Part shown: piece after piece, positions 1-4,775 of the stretch | Position numbering within the stretch: position 1 is the first letter of the stretch | How the letters are laid out: the number at the start of each line of letters is the position of its first letter | Origin: an uncultured bacterium | GTDB lineage: Bacteria > CALINM01 | Length of the DNA stretch: 6,619 nt | Reading direction: 5' to 3' | NCBI GenBank assembly: GCA_938045315.1 | Contig: CALINM010000040.1 | Span: forward strand, 1-6,619 | Position numbers and translations under genes: made by a program | The notes under the pieces: generated by a model | What the model was told of the DNA's origin: nothing | Databases searched by the model: none | The model's input: only the letters and a program-made list of their open reading frames with translations

Positions 1-602
1 CCAAGCTCCATAGCAAAGGAAGCATCTGATGCAGTTCCCACACCAGCATCTACAATAACAGGTACTTTAACAGTTTCAAGAATAATTTTTATATTGTAAG
101 GATTTCTTATGCCCAATCCTGAACCTATAGGTGCCCCAAGAGGCATAACTGCAGCACACCCAACATCTTCTAATTTTTTAGCCATTACAGGATCATCATT
201 TGTATAGGGTAACACTATAAATCCCTCTTTAACCAGAACTCTTGCCGCTTCCAGAAGAGCCTCATTGTCAGGGAAAAGAGTTTTTTGATCTCCTATTACT
301 TCTAATTTAACCATATTACTAAGCCCCAATTCCCTTGCTAATCTTGCAGTCCTTATTGCTTCTTCAGCAGTGTAACAACCAGCTGTATTTGGTAAAATTG
401 TACAGTTTATCTCTGATAAATAATCAAGAATTGTGCGTCTTTGACCCTCAATACTCATCCTTCTTATAGCAACTGTGATGACTTCTGCACCTGATGCTTC
501 TATAGCACCAAGCATAATCTCTGGCGTTGAATACTTACCTGTTCCAACAAATAATCTGGATTTAAATTGTTTGTCACCTATTACAAGATAATCTTCACTC
601 AT
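1..602 (-). CDS. thiG: Thiazole synthase ThiG (3' end cut by window edge)
   Basis: ThiG builds the thiazole ring of thiamine in the cytoplasm by condensing 1-deoxy-D-xylulose 5-phosphate, dehydroglycine and the sulfur of ThiS thiocarboxylate. Reading from 602, 200 complete codons are visible of a family usually about 255 residues long, so the C-terminal fifth lies off the left edge. The protein starts [20 protein letters not shown]. It keeps the family hallmarks VKLEVIGD (residues 98-105, with Lys99 at the place of the Schiff-base lysine that captures DXP), [11 protein letters not shown] (152-162) and VIVDAGVG (182-189), a phosphate-binding part of the TIM barrel. The ATG at 600-602 has a strong AAGGAGG ribosome site just upstream. 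It follows thiS after 20 nt, as the fifth visible gene of the thiamine operon. No frame damage is seen. Confidence 0.97.
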
Positions 603-622
603 ATAACCTCCTTATCTTATAT

Positions 623-823
623 TTATCCCCCACCAACAAAGGTAACTATTTCAAAAATATCTCCTTCACAAATCAATATATTTTCCCAATCTTTTTTGGG
701 GACTATTTCTTTATTTCGCTCAATGGCAACGTGATCTTTATTTATTTTAAAAAAATCAAGCATTTGAGAGACTGTTAAACCTGCAGGAACTTCATAATCT
801 TTTCCATTCACTTTAATGTACAA
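623..823 (-). CDS. thiS: Sulfur carrier protein ThiS
   Basis: This is a 66-residue ubiquitin-fold sulfur carrier. It begins MYIKVNGKDYEVPAGLTV and ends in FVGGG, so it has the required C-terminal Gly-Gly, which ThiF adenylates and which is then converted to thiocarboxylate to supply thiazole sulfur to ThiG. The length is normal for the family. The start is TTG at 823, chosen because AAGGAGG lies 7 nt upstream and no in-frame ATG exists near it; the only nearby ATG is in the thiH frame. The first 16 nt overlap the end of thiH, so its ribosome site sits inside thiH coding sequence and translational coupling is likely. Recognition is by the N-terminal pattern, the terminal GGG and the position between thiH and thiG. 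Confidence 0.95.
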   Translation of the reverse strand: MYIKVNGKDYEVPAGLTVSQMLDFFKINKDHVAIERNKEIVPKKDWENILICEGDIFEIVTFVGGG

Positions 824-2130
824 CTCATCCCCTCCTTAATTTTTTGTGATTCATAAACCCTTTCAAATAGAGAGAGCATTTTAGCCTTTTTATCATCATC
901 TTTTGAATTTTTAACATATTCTAAAAAGGTATTAATCGCATTTTCTTCACAGAACTCCTTAATATGTCCTTTCATCGCAAGATTGTGAAATACACCACCA
1001 ACTCTACCTTTTTTATAGCATGCTGTGCAAAAACTTGGTAACATCCTTTTTTCGAGAATTGATATTACCACATCTTCCAGACTTCGAGTATCGTTTAATG
1101 AAAACTGTGCACCTTCTTTATTAGAAATCTTACCCGTATACCCACCCGGTGCAGTAGAAGATTCAGCACTAATTTGAGAAGCTCCACACTCTAATATTTC
1201 ATCTCTCAGGTATGCAGGTTCTCTTGTAGATACCACGATTCCGGCTGTTGGGATAGATAATCTATAAACAGCAACTATTTTTTTAAAAGTAAGATCATCT
1301 ACGGGATAAGGTGGCTTTTCTACAACAGCGCCCTTTGCATATCTCAACCTGGGAACTGATATAGTATGAGGATAAGTCCCAAAAGATTCTTTAAGATATT
1401 TTGCATGCTCTATTGTGGCAAGTACATCAAAGTGATAATCATAAAGCCCTAAAAGGCAACCTATGCCAACATCTTTAAACCCTGCTTTAATAGCTCTATC
1501 CATGCAAGATAATCTATAATAAAAATCTTTTTTCTTCCCCGCAACATGATAAATTTTGTAAGTATTTTCATGATAAGTTTCCTGAAAAACTTGAAAGACC
1601 CCTACTCCAGTTTCTTTAATCGCCTTTAACTCTTCCACTTCCATGGGAGCAGCATTAAGATGTAAAATATTCATGGGTGTTTCTTTATAAATTGCATCAA
1701 CAACATTTGTTATATAATCAACACCACATAATTTTTTATTTTCCGCTGTTACAAGCAAAGCCCGCCTAAAACCACGATCTGTTAGAAATTTTGCTTCTAG
1801 GACAGCTTCTTCAATACTTAGTGTTTTTCTTACTTCATACTTATTCCCCAGTTGAAAGCCACAATAAAGACACTTATTAGAACATTCATTAGAAAGATAA
1901 AGGGGAGCAAAAAGAACTATCCTATCGCCATATACCTTTTTTTTAATTTCAAAAGCTTTTAAGCATAGTTCATTAATAGTTTCACTATCTTCCACACTTA
2001 GCAGAAAAGATATTTCATCAAGATTTAATTCTTCAGAACAAAAGACTTTCTCTATAATTTCATCGAATCTTTTTCTGTCAAAGGGGTACCTTTTTTTCGA
2101 TATTTCACCAATTTTTTCAAAGTTAAGCAT
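808..2130 (-). CDS. thiH: Radical SAM tyrosine lyase ThiH (2-iminoacetate synthase) with HydG-type C-terminal cluster motif
   Basis: This cytoplasmic radical SAM enzyme is expected to cleave tyrosine into p-cresol and dehydroglycine, the glycine-derived substrate of ThiG. The CX3CX2C motif for the SAM-binding [4Fe-4S] cluster is at Cys83, Cys87 and Cys90 (CSNKCLYCGF). Further family segments are VFQETYH (181-187), GIGCLLGLYDY (222-232), PHTISVPR (254-261) and STREPAYLRDE (301-311). At 440 residues it is longer than the E. coli-type ThiH (about 377). The extra C-terminus has Cys368, Cys371 and Cys394, an exact CX2CX22C, in a CTACYKKGRVGG context followed by ENAINTFLEYV, which closely resembles HydG, the [FeFe]-hydrogenase maturase. 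Context (thiF, thiDN, thiS, thiG) supports the thiamine role. The ATG at 2128-2130 overlaps the fusion gene upstream by 8 nt with only a weak GGGA site, suggesting coupling. HydG itself is the alternative call. Confidence 0.9.
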   Translation of the reverse strand: MLNFEKIGEISKKRYPFDRKRFDEIIEKVFCSEELNLDEISFLLSVEDSETINELCLKAFEIKKKVYGDRIVLFAPLYLSNECSNKCLYCGFQLGNKYEVRKTLSIEEAVLEAKFLTDRGFRRALLVTAENKKLCGVDYITNVVDAIYKETPMNILHLNAAPMEVEELKAIKETGVGVFQVFQETYHENTYKIYHVAGKKKDFYYRLSCMDRAIKAGFKDVGIGCLLGLYDYHFDVLATIEHAKYLKESFGTYPHTISVPRLRYAKGAVVEKPPYPVDDLTFKKIVAVYRLSIPTAGIVVSTREPAYLRDEILECGASQISAESSTAPGGYTGKISNKEGAQFSLNDTRSLEDVVISILEKRMLPSFCTACYKKGRVGGVFHNLAMKGHIKEFCEENAINTFLEYVKNSKDDDKKAKMLSLFERVYESQKIKEGMSCTLK

Positions 2131-3481
2131 TTTTATATTCCCATATTTTTTTTATTTTCAATACTTTTTCGACAACATCAAAGGGGTCACAGCCAAATAC
2201 TCTTATCACTGGTTCCTTACCCACATCGCCAAGATCATAAATAATATCGGGCATAACACTACTTCTTTTCAAAACTTCACATACCCCCCAATTTAGACTG
2301 CTACCTTCTATATTTTTGATATTTTTTGGTTCTTTTTTTCTATCAAAACTTCTTACTTTAAAACCCGCTTCTTTAAGAAGTGGTATTAACTCCGGGATAA
2401 ACCTTAAAGCAATTGCTGATGATACTTCAGGATAAAATCTTTTTGCAGCAATAACCAGTGATGCCACATGTTTTGATGCTCCAAATTCAGGTGAACCAAT
2501 GCAAAAAAGATTATTTTTATAATTTACAATTCTTCCTGGAAAACCTGCTACATCATAAATATCCTTTGCTACAGGTAAAGAATAAACGAAATTTGTTTGT
2601 ATTTCGGGAATCAGGTAACCAATATTCTCGTTTTTAATTCTTTCAAAGGCAATCTTTAATTCCTCCACTATCTCGTATTTCCTGGCCTCTTCCCTTAAAA
2701 CAGCAAATTGATCAACTGTCCCGAATTGGCTACCTAACTCAACTCCCTTCTTTAGCGCTTTAAATATGAATGTCCTTGCCTTTGAGATCGATTCAAGCCA
2801 ATTAAACCCTAAAATTAGATATGAAGCAACTGCTGTTGCAAGGCTACATCCTGTACCATGGGTATTTCTTGTTTTTATTCTCTCTATGGGGAATTTATGA
2901 ATAAGATTTTTTTCAAAATAAACATCAAAATCTATATTAGAATCTCCGCATTTAATCAAAACTCTCTTAGCTTGTTTTAACAAAATTTTACCAGCTTTCA
3001 CAACATCCTCTAATGTTTCAATTTTAATACCCGTAAACTGCTCTGCTTCAGAAATATTCGGGGTTATTAAATCACAGTACTTAAATAATTTTTCTATGAT
3101 ATCTTTGTTAGATAAAATTCCACCACTTTGAGCTACAAGGACAGGATCAATAACAACTGGTTTTTTCTGTTTCTCTAAAAATTTTCTTATTGTATTAGCC
3201 ACTTCAACATTAGCAATCATTCCTATTTTTATTCCATCAAAATAAATGTCATCTTCAATAGAGCTTAGCTGTTTTTCCACATCTTCTTCTGGAAGATTAA
3301 ATATTTTCTGGACTCCCTTTGTATTCTGGGCTGTTATAGATGTTATAACTGTTAATCCATAAACACCTATAGCAGAAGCTGTTTTTAGGTCCGCTTGAAT
3401 ACCTGCACCAGCTGTAGGATCAGAACCTGCTATTATAAGTATTCTCTTTGGTCTACTCATATTTTTTATTTTCAAACTCAT
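2123..3481 (-). CDS. thiD: Bifunctional HMP/HMP-P kinase ThiD fused to thiamine-phosphate synthase ThiN
   Basis: This is a 452-residue fusion. The N-terminal part (about 11-258) is ThiD, which phosphorylates hydroxymethylpyrimidine twice. It has the ribokinase-fold start ILIIAGSDPTAGAGIQAD, the ITAQNTKGV segment and the anion hole NTHGTGCS with Cys212. The C-terminal part (about 270-450) is ThiN, which joins HMP diphosphate and thiazole phosphate in place of ThiE. It shows IPEIQTNFVYS, DVAGFPGRIV, FGASKHVASL and GKEPVIRV. Arg317 and His338 have the same 21-residue spacing as the Arg/His pair reported as important in the archaeal ThiDN enzyme. The ATG at 3479-3481 is preferred because AGGAG lies 6 nt upstream; a TTG one codon earlier (3484) is too close to it, and an ATG at about 3460 (MSRPKR) overlaps the thiF stop but has no ribosome site. 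It overlaps thiF by 29 nt. Confidence 0.95.
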   Translation of the reverse strand: MSLKIKNMSRPKRILIIAGSDPTAGAGIQADLKTASAIGVYGLTVITSITAQNTKGVQKIFNLPEEDVEKQLSSIEDDIYFDGIKIGMIANVEVANTIRKFLEKQKKPVVIDPVLVAQSGGILSNKDIIEKLFKYCDLITPNISEAEQFTGIKIETLEDVVKAGKILLKQAKRVLIKCGDSNIDFDVYFEKNLIHKFPIERIKTRNTHGTGCSLATAVASYLILGFNWLESISKARTFIFKALKKGVELGSQFGTVDQFAVLREEARKYEIVEELKIAFERIKNENIGYLIPEIQTNFVYSLPVAKDIYDVAGFPGRIVNYKNNLFCIGSPEFGASKHVASLVIAAKRFYPEVSSAIALRFIPELIPLLKEAGFKVRSFDRKKEPKNIKNIEGSSLNWGVCEVLKRSSVMPDIIYDLGDVGKEPVIRVFGCDPFDVVEKVLKIKKIWEYKNA

Positions 3482-4280
3482 CAAACTCTCCTAAAATTAT
3501 TCTTAGAACCTGGTTCGCCTGGTGATGTGCTGCAATCCCTACTCTTGGAGCCATTAATCCATTACCCGGCCTTGCCTCACTAACTAAGTCTCCAACTACA
3601 AAAAGTTTATTTGCAATCCGCCTCGTAATGATATCATTATTTGGCCCATACCCAGCTAGCCCAGACGCGGCAACAACAAACACATCTGGCATTTTTTCAA
3701 GAACTGTATGGATTAACATAGTCTTCATGTCAGCTCTATCGAAGGCTTCTACGATAACATGGCAATCAACAAAAATATCTGGTATATTCTTAGATGTTAA
3801 CTTTACATTATGGGTAATGATATTAATGAAGGGATTAATTTTTTTTAGATTATCAAAGAGTGCTTCAGTTTTGAAAAGTCCTATCTGGTGTATGAAATAT
3901 TGTTGTCTATTTAAATTAGATGGTTCCACCACATCAAAGTCAGCTAAAATGAGATTTCCTACACCAACTCTCGCTAGGGCAATAGCAACATTTGACCCCA
4001 ATCCACCAAGGCCTGCAATCCCTACTTTTGAGTTTTTCAGTCTTTCATAAACACCCGGGGTATGTCTTGCAATCATCATAAATTCAAGTTCTTGTTGATC
4101 TGGCAGTTCACCCCTTTTAATTAGAAAAACCTGGTCCCTTTCTTTTAAAGTAACATCTTCACTGACAGGAAAGCCATTTAGTACAATTACATCCGCATTG
4201 GGTTTAAAAATACTTTTCACTTGAAAAAGAGTAATATTTTCTTCAACATCAACAATTTTTTCATTAATTCTGATTTTCAT
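3453..4280 (-). CDS. thiF: ThiS adenylyltransferase ThiF with N-terminal ThiS-like domain
   Basis: ThiF is an E1-like enzyme that adenylates the C-terminal glycine of ThiS using ATP, the first step of sulfur loading. Residues 1-57 look like a ThiS/ubiquitin-fold domain (MKIRINEKIVDVEENITLF, later VIVLNGFPV and VFLIKRGELP) but without a Gly-Gly end. The E1 domain follows from about residue 67: VGIAGLGGLGS (86-96) is the nucleotide-binding glycine motif, and ADFDVVEPSNLNRQ (113-126) holds the Asp and Arg of the adenylation site. Only one cysteine (Cys173) is present, so the two CxxC zinc pairs of E. coli ThiF/MoeB are absent, as in the shorter ThiF type found next to anaerobic thiazole genes. 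The ATG at 4278-4280 gives the natural domain start, but no Shine-Dalgarno is visible before it. It is the first gene after the TPP riboswitch. Confidence 0.92.
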   Translation of the reverse strand: MKIRINEKIVDVEENITLFQVKSIFKPNADVIVLNGFPVSEDVTLKERDQVFLIKRGELPDQQELEFMMIARHTPGVYERLKNSKVGIAGLGGLGSNVAIALARVGVGNLILADFDVVEPSNLNRQQYFIHQIGLFKTEALFDNLKKINPFINIITHNVKLTSKNIPDIFVDCHVIVEAFDRADMKTMLIHTVLEKMPDVFVVAASGLAGYGPNNDIITRRIANKLFVVGDLVSEARPGNGLMAPRVGIAAHHQANQVLRIILGEFDEFENKKYE

Positions 4281-4319
4281 AAATTACGTTGGTAGGACTT
4301 CTGGAAGGCTAACTAACGT

Positions 4320-4407
4320 GACCTTTCCCTACGACGGCATTACCCGTATCAGGTTCTAAGGGTTACTCTCTTTTTGAGAGTTCTCAGCTTGTAAGCACCC
4401 CCAGGTC
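4320..4407 (-). promoter_or_regulatory. TPP riboswitch (thi box) upstream of thiF
   Basis: The minus strand carries the conserved thi-box elements in order: GGGGGTGC (4402-4395), GCTGAGA (4388-4382), an optional P3a hairpin ACTCTC-AAAAA-GAGAGT (4381-4365), ACCC, ACCTGATACGGGTAATGCC, then CGTAGGGAAA. P1 is closed by GACCT (4407-4403) with AGGTC (4324-4320), 5 bp. This aptamer binds thiamine diphosphate and normally turns off downstream genes. It starts 13 nt after the cooT stop codon and ends 39 nt before the thiF ATG. No hairpin with a U-tract follows it, so control of translation start is more likely than a terminator. Recognition is by consensus, not by a covariance search. Confidence 0.96.
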
Positions 4408-4420
4408 CTACAATAACTAT

Positions 4421-4609
4421 TTATTTTTCCTCAAATATAATTTTATGGGAAAGTAAATTCATTTCCCTTATTTTACCCTTAATTCTCTGACTGTCCCCCA
4501 GTACACCATAAAGCAAATACTCATCACCATCAGGAACTATCCGAATAACTTCTTTGAATACAAGCTCTTCTTTATCGCCTTTTAACAAATATACATTTGA
4601 CTCACACAT
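4421..4609 (-). CDS. cooT: CooT-family small nickel-binding protein
   Basis: This is a 62-residue cytoplasmic protein starting MCESNVYLLKGDKEELVF and ending MNLLSHKIIFEEK. The Met-Cys start followed by a short beta-rich chain, the central DGDEYLLYGVLGD and the final KIREMNLLSHKI pattern match my memory of the CooT family, in which Cys2 is the nickel ligand; the founder serves CO dehydrogenase maturation in Rhodospirillum rubrum. Cys2 is the only cysteine here. The start at 4607-4609 was chosen because it yields the family MC start; the open frame extends upstream to 4684 but that stretch runs into the tRNA gene. No good ribosome site is seen. It lies 50 nt after the tRNA and just ahead of the TPP riboswitch. 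No CO dehydrogenase or nickel gene is nearby, so its client is unknown. Confidence 0.8.
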   Translation of the reverse strand: MCESNVYLLKGDKEELVFKEVIRIVPDGDEYLLYGVLGDSQRIKGKIREMNLLSHKIIFEEK

Positions 4610-4659
4610 ATTTTCAATATTAGCACTAATTTTAATACTACTCAAGTTTTTTTTATTAA

Positions 4660-4733
4660 CGCCCCCGGCGTGGATCGAACACACGGCCTCAGGATTAGGA
4701 ATCCTGCGCTCTATCCTACTGAGCTACGGGGGC
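4660..4733 (-). tRNA. tRNA-Arg(CCT), reads AGG
   Basis: A complete cloverleaf is read on the minus strand. The acceptor GCCCCCG pairs with CGGGGGC over 7 bp; the D arm is GCTC/GAGC; the anticodon stem CAGGA/TCCTG closes the loop TTCCTAA, with anticodon CCT; the T arm is GTGTG/CACGC around TTCGATC. The variable region is short (AGGCC). The discriminator base is G at 4660 and CCA is not encoded, so the 3' end must be added after transcription. The gene sits between apt and cooT on the same strand. No terminator hairpin is seen on either side. Confidence 0.97.
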
Positions 4734-4775
4734 AAAATATATAGCTATTTTATCAAAAAATAAAAAGAAAAACAT
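4734..4775 (-). promoter_or_regulatory. AT-rich spacer with possible tRNA promoter -10
   Basis: This 42-nt gap between the apt stop and the tRNA is almost pure A/T on the minus strand. TAAAAT at 4752-4747 would be a fair -10 element and would place a start about 7 nt before the mature tRNA. No convincing -35 box is found, and there is no terminator behind apt. Independent tRNA transcription is therefore possible but not shown; read-through from apt is equally possible. Confidence 0.25.

Follow-up and report, generated by a model that had tools for sequence, protein, structure and literature searches.

The window holds a thiamine operon

The window, by which we mean the whole analysed stretch of 6,619 nt from an uncultured bacterium (contig CALINM010000040.1 of assembly GCA_938045315.1), holds a thiamine operon. 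With HMMs, the gene order was found to be thiF-thiDN-thiH-thiS-thiG, all on one strand, and the following features were assigned.

4308-4412, minus strand: TPP riboswitch that heads the operon, directly upstream of thiF (RF00059, 77.7 bits, full length)
3453-4280, minus strand: thiF with an N-terminal ThiS-like domain (PF00899, PF14453, TIGR02354)
2123-3484, minus strand: thiDN, HMP-P kinase fused to ThiN thiamine-phosphate synthase (PF08543 and PF10120)
808-2130, minus strand: thiH (HydG-type), a radical SAM tyrosine lyase homologue of 440 aa (ORF)
1861-1884, minus strand: radical SAM motif CX3CX2C (C83, C87, C90; residues 83-90)
1654-1668, minus strand: residues 155-159, I-L-H-L-N, a strand assigned from the model
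1366-1368, minus strand: H255 in PHTISVPR, aligned with the histidine of HydG PHTIS
949-1029, minus strand: auxiliary cluster motif CX2CX22C (C368, C371, C394)
623-823, minus strand: thiS, sulphur carrier with a C-terminal GGG (TIGR01683, 74.5 bits)
3-602, minus strand: thiG, thiazole synthase, truncated by the contig end (PF05690, 294.8 bits)

The plus-strand frame over 808-2130 is riddled with stop codons, and the coding strand is the minus strand. By ORF coordinates, thiH shares 16 nt with thiS and 8 nt with thiDN; the original prediction, in which thiH overlapped thiS and lay between thiDN and thiG, thus agrees with both the HMMs and the ORF coordinates. The TPP riboswitch was absent from that prediction, and the operon is presumably under vitamin B1 control. 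Just upstream of the operon, a CooT-like protein is encoded at 4421-4684 on the minus strand (PF10133, 76.9 bits), and a tRNA-Arg (CCT; window 4659-4734, minus strand) lies between apt and this small gene. The GTG start listed for the CooT ORF (4684) overlaps the tRNA-Arg, and the true start is probably further in.

The thiH product has a HydG-type body with a second cluster motif

In the thiH product, CTACYKKGRVGGVFHNLAMKGHIKEFC at residues 368-394 forms an exact CX2CX22C motif, and in the alignment it matches the cluster motif of the HydG structures 4WCX and 4RTB at every column. The motif seen in the original prediction is therefore homologous to the HydG cluster motif and no chance match. 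The prediction had also stated that the motif is missing from E. coli-type ThiH, and short ThiH proteins, the solved structure 7PD1 among them, were found to be without this C-terminal part. In the alignment to HydG, the histidine of the HydG PHTIS motif is kept as H255. This histidine is presumably the residue other than cysteine that binds the extra (dangler) iron of HydG. A histidine ligand to that iron is mentioned in a review (PMC6212873).

The family profiles place the protein with HydG. It scored 365 bits against TIGR03955 (HydG), above the cut-off of 312, and 322 bits against TIGR02351 (ThiH), below the cut-off of 380. All 11 tested members of the clade described below passed the TIGR03955 equivalog cut-off and failed that of TIGR02351, so an NCBIfam-based annotation would name them HydG. 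The AlphaFold2 model (pLDDT 93.5) superimposed on HydG 4WCX with a TM-score of 0.93 (Z 53.5, rmsd 1.8 Å over 433 residues), and the C-terminal domain was confidently modelled on the HydG fold. The nearest solved structures were HydG 4RTB and 4WCX, followed by ThiH 7PD1. The window ThiH (808-840) and its two nearest relatives (L012 and L013) are without the C-terminal GxRDxYF-like end that almost all of the remaining thiazole-type proteins and HydG have in common.

Thiazole-type sequences form a clade of their own

Relatives were collected from a scan of genome contigs and from surveys of 295, 297 and 249 sampled genomes in three phyla; the window's own phylum contributed three genomes only, and the breadth was drawn from other phyla. 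Each locus was labelled by its neighbours, identified by BLAST against the window genome's own genes, as T (thiS/thiG), F (thiF only), H (hydE, hydF or hydrogenase), U (unknown) or S (short ThiH). Two loci with uninformative flanks, L174 and L156, fell in the thiazole clade and were counted there, and the other U rows fell in HydG and were counted with it.

A tree of ThiH and HydG, as the original prediction had called for, was built without the columns of the C-terminal cluster and placed the window protein in a clade of its own outside HydG. Three groups separated cleanly, with support of 90/76 for the thiazole type, 90/92 for HydG and 100/100 for short ThiH, and with two context changes, the minimum possible. 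A larger quick tree agreed. There was no thiazole-neighbour sequence among HydG and no hyd-neighbour sequence among the thiazole type. In a tree with HydE as outgroup, support for the thiazole-type clade was 94/88. The clade rests on a short branch (0.05 changes per column) with moderate support, and it is sister to HydG when short ThiH is taken as the root.

The clade comprises 58 sequences from Nitrospirota, a Desulfobacterota-like phylum, a few Bacillota (L175-L177 and L209) and the small phylum of the window; their identity to the window protein is typically 45-55%. In the open-licence papers on HydG with ThiH, no report of such a clade was found, which is weak evidence of novelty. Two of the thiazole-type genes are split into two frames (L019:2927-3985 and L033:1-996), by sequencing error or decay.

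Cluster residues are invariant and five positions separate the clade from HydG

The cysteines of CX3CX2C were invariant in all 58 thiazole-type, 48 HydG and 13 short ThiH sequences. C368, C371 and C394 were kept in 58/58 thiazole-type and 48/48 HydG sequences and in 0/13 of short ThiH. At the position of H255, histidine was likewise found throughout the thiazole type (58/58) and HydG (48/48), whereas short ThiH has V, I, L or Y there. A first pattern count had suggested that several members are without this histidine; this was rejected, as the alignment shows PHTLS and AHTIS variants in which it is kept. For five HydG sequences (L225, L227, L229, L230 and L234), a simple pattern search for C-X2-C-X(20-24)-C did not match the C-terminal motif, possibly due to an insertion.

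The residues that bind tyrosine in ThiH from Thermosinus carboxydivorans (TcThiH) are T299, R300, R306, S318 and S321 (PMC9046217). They are kept as T302, R303, R309, S321 and S324, each in 58/58 members of the clade. N159 aligns with E158 of TcThiH and is asparagine as in most HydG. T. italicus HydG makes up for E158 with Glu128 (TcThiH numbering). This Glu is absent from the clade; the position is V in 57/58, as in C. hydrogenoformans HydG.

Five nearly perfect positions split the 58 thiazole-type from the 48 HydG sequences. In HydG they are R155, N157, T178, I299 and M382, each in 48/48, and in the thiazole type they are I155 (57/58), H157, V178, V299 and, at 382, various residues with no Met among those listed. 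The window protein has I, H, V, V and H at the five positions. Residues 155, 157 and 159 lie on one strand and 159 faces the substrate, so 155 and 157 should likewise point towards the barrel, in the space that separates the tyrosine site from the auxiliary cluster.

Genomic context links the clade to thiazole synthesis

In 49 of the collected loci, thiS/thiG adjoin the thiazole-type gene, and in 7 more thiF is a neighbour. A TPP riboswitch was found in 19/20 thiazole-type loci with 1.5-kb flanks compared to 0/20 hydG loci, and in 11/13 further thiazole-type loci. In 12 genomes from other phyla, the thiazole-type protein was the only ThiH/HydG homologue, and neither HydF nor ThiO was found over the cut-off in these 12 genomes. 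HydF hits far below the cut-off did occur in them, as in 14/14 control genomes, and were read as other GTPases.

Most of the genomes are incomplete MAGs, so the absences are statistical. An [FeFe]-hydrogenase domain was found in 0/53 genomes with the thiazole type outside the window's phylum and Bacillota. One of the 53, G394, also has a HydG, which lies within a [NiFe]-hydrogenase gene cluster. Seven tested genomes have both the thiazole type and an [FeFe]-hydrogenase, and all of them carry a separate HydG. In the Desulfobacterota-like sample, short ThiH was found in 0/23 genomes with the thiazole type compared to 18/37 with HydG only (Fisher p = 2.3e-5, with genomes treated as independent, which overstates the significance). 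From the co-occurrence with short ThiH and with hydrogenase, it follows that the thiazole type takes the place of short ThiH but not that of HydG.

The window genome also encodes ordinary HydG

The genome of the window has two further homologues of the window ThiH, both ordinary hydG genes and both absent from the original prediction. One lies on contig C104 in the order hydG-hydE-hydF-hydrogenase, and the other on contig C182, behind hydrogenase subunit genes. Two related genomes show the same split, with one copy after thiDN and the other beside hydE. Neither short ThiH nor ThiO was found over the cut-off in the window genome, which is about 92% complete, and the window ThiH is the sole candidate source of dehydroglycine for ThiG found in it.

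The search for hyd genes and second copies that the original prediction had proposed thus gave hydE, hydF, hydrogenase and two hydG genes, and no other thiH. The prediction had named as its counter-case a protein inside HydG, in a genome with hydE, hydF and hydrogenase and with another thiH elsewhere. The hyd genes were there; the decisive half of this case failed, since the protein falls outside the HydG clade and no other thiH was found.

Among the loci collected, L011 (8803-11070) encodes a protein in which an [FeFe]-hydrogenase-type domain is fused to a part that resembles a sigma-54 activator. The gene immediately follows hydG-hydE-hydF, and a [NiFe]-hydrogenase gene cluster comes after it.

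A HypC-HydE-HydG branch in [NiFe]-hydrogenase gene clusters

The surveys also contained HydE proteins with an N-terminal HypC domain (PF01455), with HydG fused or next to them, in [NiFe]-hydrogenase gene clusters. The HypC-HydE loci are L211:823-3654 (minus), L213:6282-9050 (minus), L212:5789-8578 (plus), L214:838-3918 (minus) and L205:5566-9795 (plus). Two Nitrospirota genomes, G084 and G033, have a HypC-HydE-HydG triple fusion, and two others, G069 and G064, have HypC-HydE followed by HydG, adjoining a sulfhydrogenase-like large subunit. In G394, from another phylum, HypC-HydE occurs with HydG, the HycI protease, HypA and HypB. G058 has a HydG of the same HypC-HydE-associated branch on a contig that is cut. 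An [FeFe]-hydrogenase domain was found in 0/6 of G084, G033, G069, G064, G394 and G058, and by the same test in 7/7 other HydG-bearing Nitrospirota. This suggests that [NiFe] maturation receives CO, or else an Fe-CO-CN unit, from HydE/HydG.

Function of the HydG-type ThiH and rival explanations

The window protein probably works as ThiH and thus makes 2-iminoacetate (dehydroglycine) for the thiazole branch of thiamine synthesis, with a HydG-type body and a real second Fe-S site. This reading of the sequence data is based on the thiamine operon, the TPP control, the intact tyrosine-lyase residues, the lack of any other ThiH found in the genome and the position in a clade of its own. Among the options in the original prediction, the one well supported is that of a ThiH lineage with a retained auxiliary cluster; it is backed by the separate clade, the thiazole operons, the TPP riboswitches and the 12 genomes in which the protein is the sole homologue.

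One alternative is that the gene is an ordinary HydG that lies in the thiamine operon by chance, or that one enzyme serves both hydrogenase maturation and thiazole synthesis. We consider this most improbable. It would explain why 11/11 tested members pass the TIGR03955 cut-off, why the cluster motif and the histidine are kept, and why hydE, hydF and hydrogenases are present in the window genome, but that genome has two other hydG genes beside hydE/hydF or hydA, the tree position is outside HydG, the hydrogenase domain was found in 0/53 genomes from other phyla, and the operon is under TPP riboswitch control. The one enzyme for both pathways that the original prediction had allowed for is contradicted by these two hydG genes, by the 53 genomes without an [FeFe]-hydrogenase and by the separate HydG in the seven genomes with one. 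A relic, left when HydG was recruited to thiamine synthesis and the second cluster was not yet lost, would fit the sister position to HydG when the root is at short ThiH. This option of the original prediction is nevertheless very unlikely, as all three cysteines and the histidine were kept in 58/58 sequences across several phyla and in genomes without an [FeFe]-hydrogenase. It is likewise very unlikely that the enzyme, while it feeds ThiG, also splits some of the dehydroglycine to CO and cyanide for another use, such as CO for [NiFe]-hydrogenase. Where [NiFe]-hydrogenase obtains its CO under anaerobic conditions is still debated (PMC12134894), which leaves room for such a supply, as do the kept cysteines and histidine of the cluster; however, the riboswitch and the operon are typical of thiamine synthesis, and the HydG-invariant R155, N157, T178 and M382 are replaced. 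The absence of these HydG residues argues against the formation of CO and cyanide.

Enzymes of the ThiH/HydG family cleave SAM at the first cluster and cleave tyrosine to p-cresol and dehydroglycine. Dehydroglycine hydrolyses spontaneously in water (PMC9046217). We tentatively propose that the thiazole-type enzyme may hold dehydroglycine at the auxiliary cluster for ThiG. SAM would be cleaved at the first cluster and tyrosine would then yield p-cresol and dehydroglycine, which would travel down the barrel to the auxiliary cluster. There, the open iron of the cluster, either alone or together with a fifth iron bound to H255, could chelate dehydroglycine and shield it from hydrolysis until ThiG takes over. 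The replacement of R155, N157, T178 and M382 would spare it from being split to CO and cyanide. The auxiliary cluster could instead be purely structural, capping or stiffening the bottom of the barrel or the face that docks ThiG, and have no part in the chemistry. This is possible but somewhat doubtful: the C-terminal domain is confidently modelled on the HydG fold and the residues around the cysteines (382, 384 and 388) are more variable than in HydG, both as might be expected of such a role, whereas H255 is located in the barrel part rather than in the C-terminal domain and is invariant with no obvious structural need, which argues for more than a structural cluster.

Evolution and meaning

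The branch to the HydE outgroup is 3.78 changes per column long, and the branching among short ThiH, HydG and the thiazole type does not resolve. Due to this very long branch, the root is not fixed by HydE, and no direction of evolution is claimed. The intermediate between ThiH and HydG that the original prediction had also considered is neither favoured nor disfavoured by this tree. There is an argument from parsimony: with the root at short ThiH, a cluster-bearing ThiH that came first needs one change, from thiazole to hydrogenase, and otherwise two are needed. The auxiliary cluster might have served thiazole synthesis first, in an ancestral cluster-bearing ThiH that held dehydroglycine for ThiG, with HydG derived from it via changes of the R155, N157, T178 and M382 type. 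We regard this history as rather unlikely. If it is true, the thiazole-type clade is what survives today of the lineage from which H-cluster ligand synthesis arose when holding was turned into splitting.

CX2CX22C is usually taken as the signature of HydG and thus of the assembly of [FeFe]-hydrogenases. Since a large clade with this motif is found in vitamin synthesis without [FeFe]-hydrogenases, neither the motif nor TIGR03955 alone is proof of hydrogenase maturation, and surveys of HydG that rely on them overcount. The clade also suggests that the auxiliary site has a use outside hydrogenase assembly. It is a natural comparison set, with the same cluster residues and presumed substrate as HydG, another fate of dehydroglycine, and five positions that differ, and it makes the origin of the CO and cyanide chemistry of HydG experimentally approachable.

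Comparison with known systems

NosL, the 3-methyl-2-indolic acid synthase, has the aromatic amino acid lyase fold in common with the window protein, at 22-24% identity. It was not retained as a candidate, as it is a tryptophan lyase and its sequence matches residues 63-349 only.

ThiH (TIGR02351; PDB 7PD1, from Thermosinus carboxydivorans) shares with the window type the operon, the presumed reaction and the tyrosine-binding residues, and its radical SAM core superimposes with a Z-score of 48.7. In contrast, the identity is about 30%, ThiH is without the C-terminal domain, the cluster cysteines and the histidine, it has E158 where the window type has N, and the window type scores below the TIGR02351 cut-off.

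HydG (TIGR03955; PDB 4WCX and 4RTB) shares the full-length fold, with Z-scores of 53.5 and 49.8, and at about 40% identity it has CX3CX2C, CX2CX22C, the PHTIS histidine and N159 in common with the window protein. The two differ in that the window type forms a separate clade, in that the window type has I155, H157, V178, V299 and, at 382, a residue other than Met where HydG has R, N, T, I and M, and in that the window type is found in a thiamine operon with a TPP riboswitch, whereas HydG is found with hyd genes.
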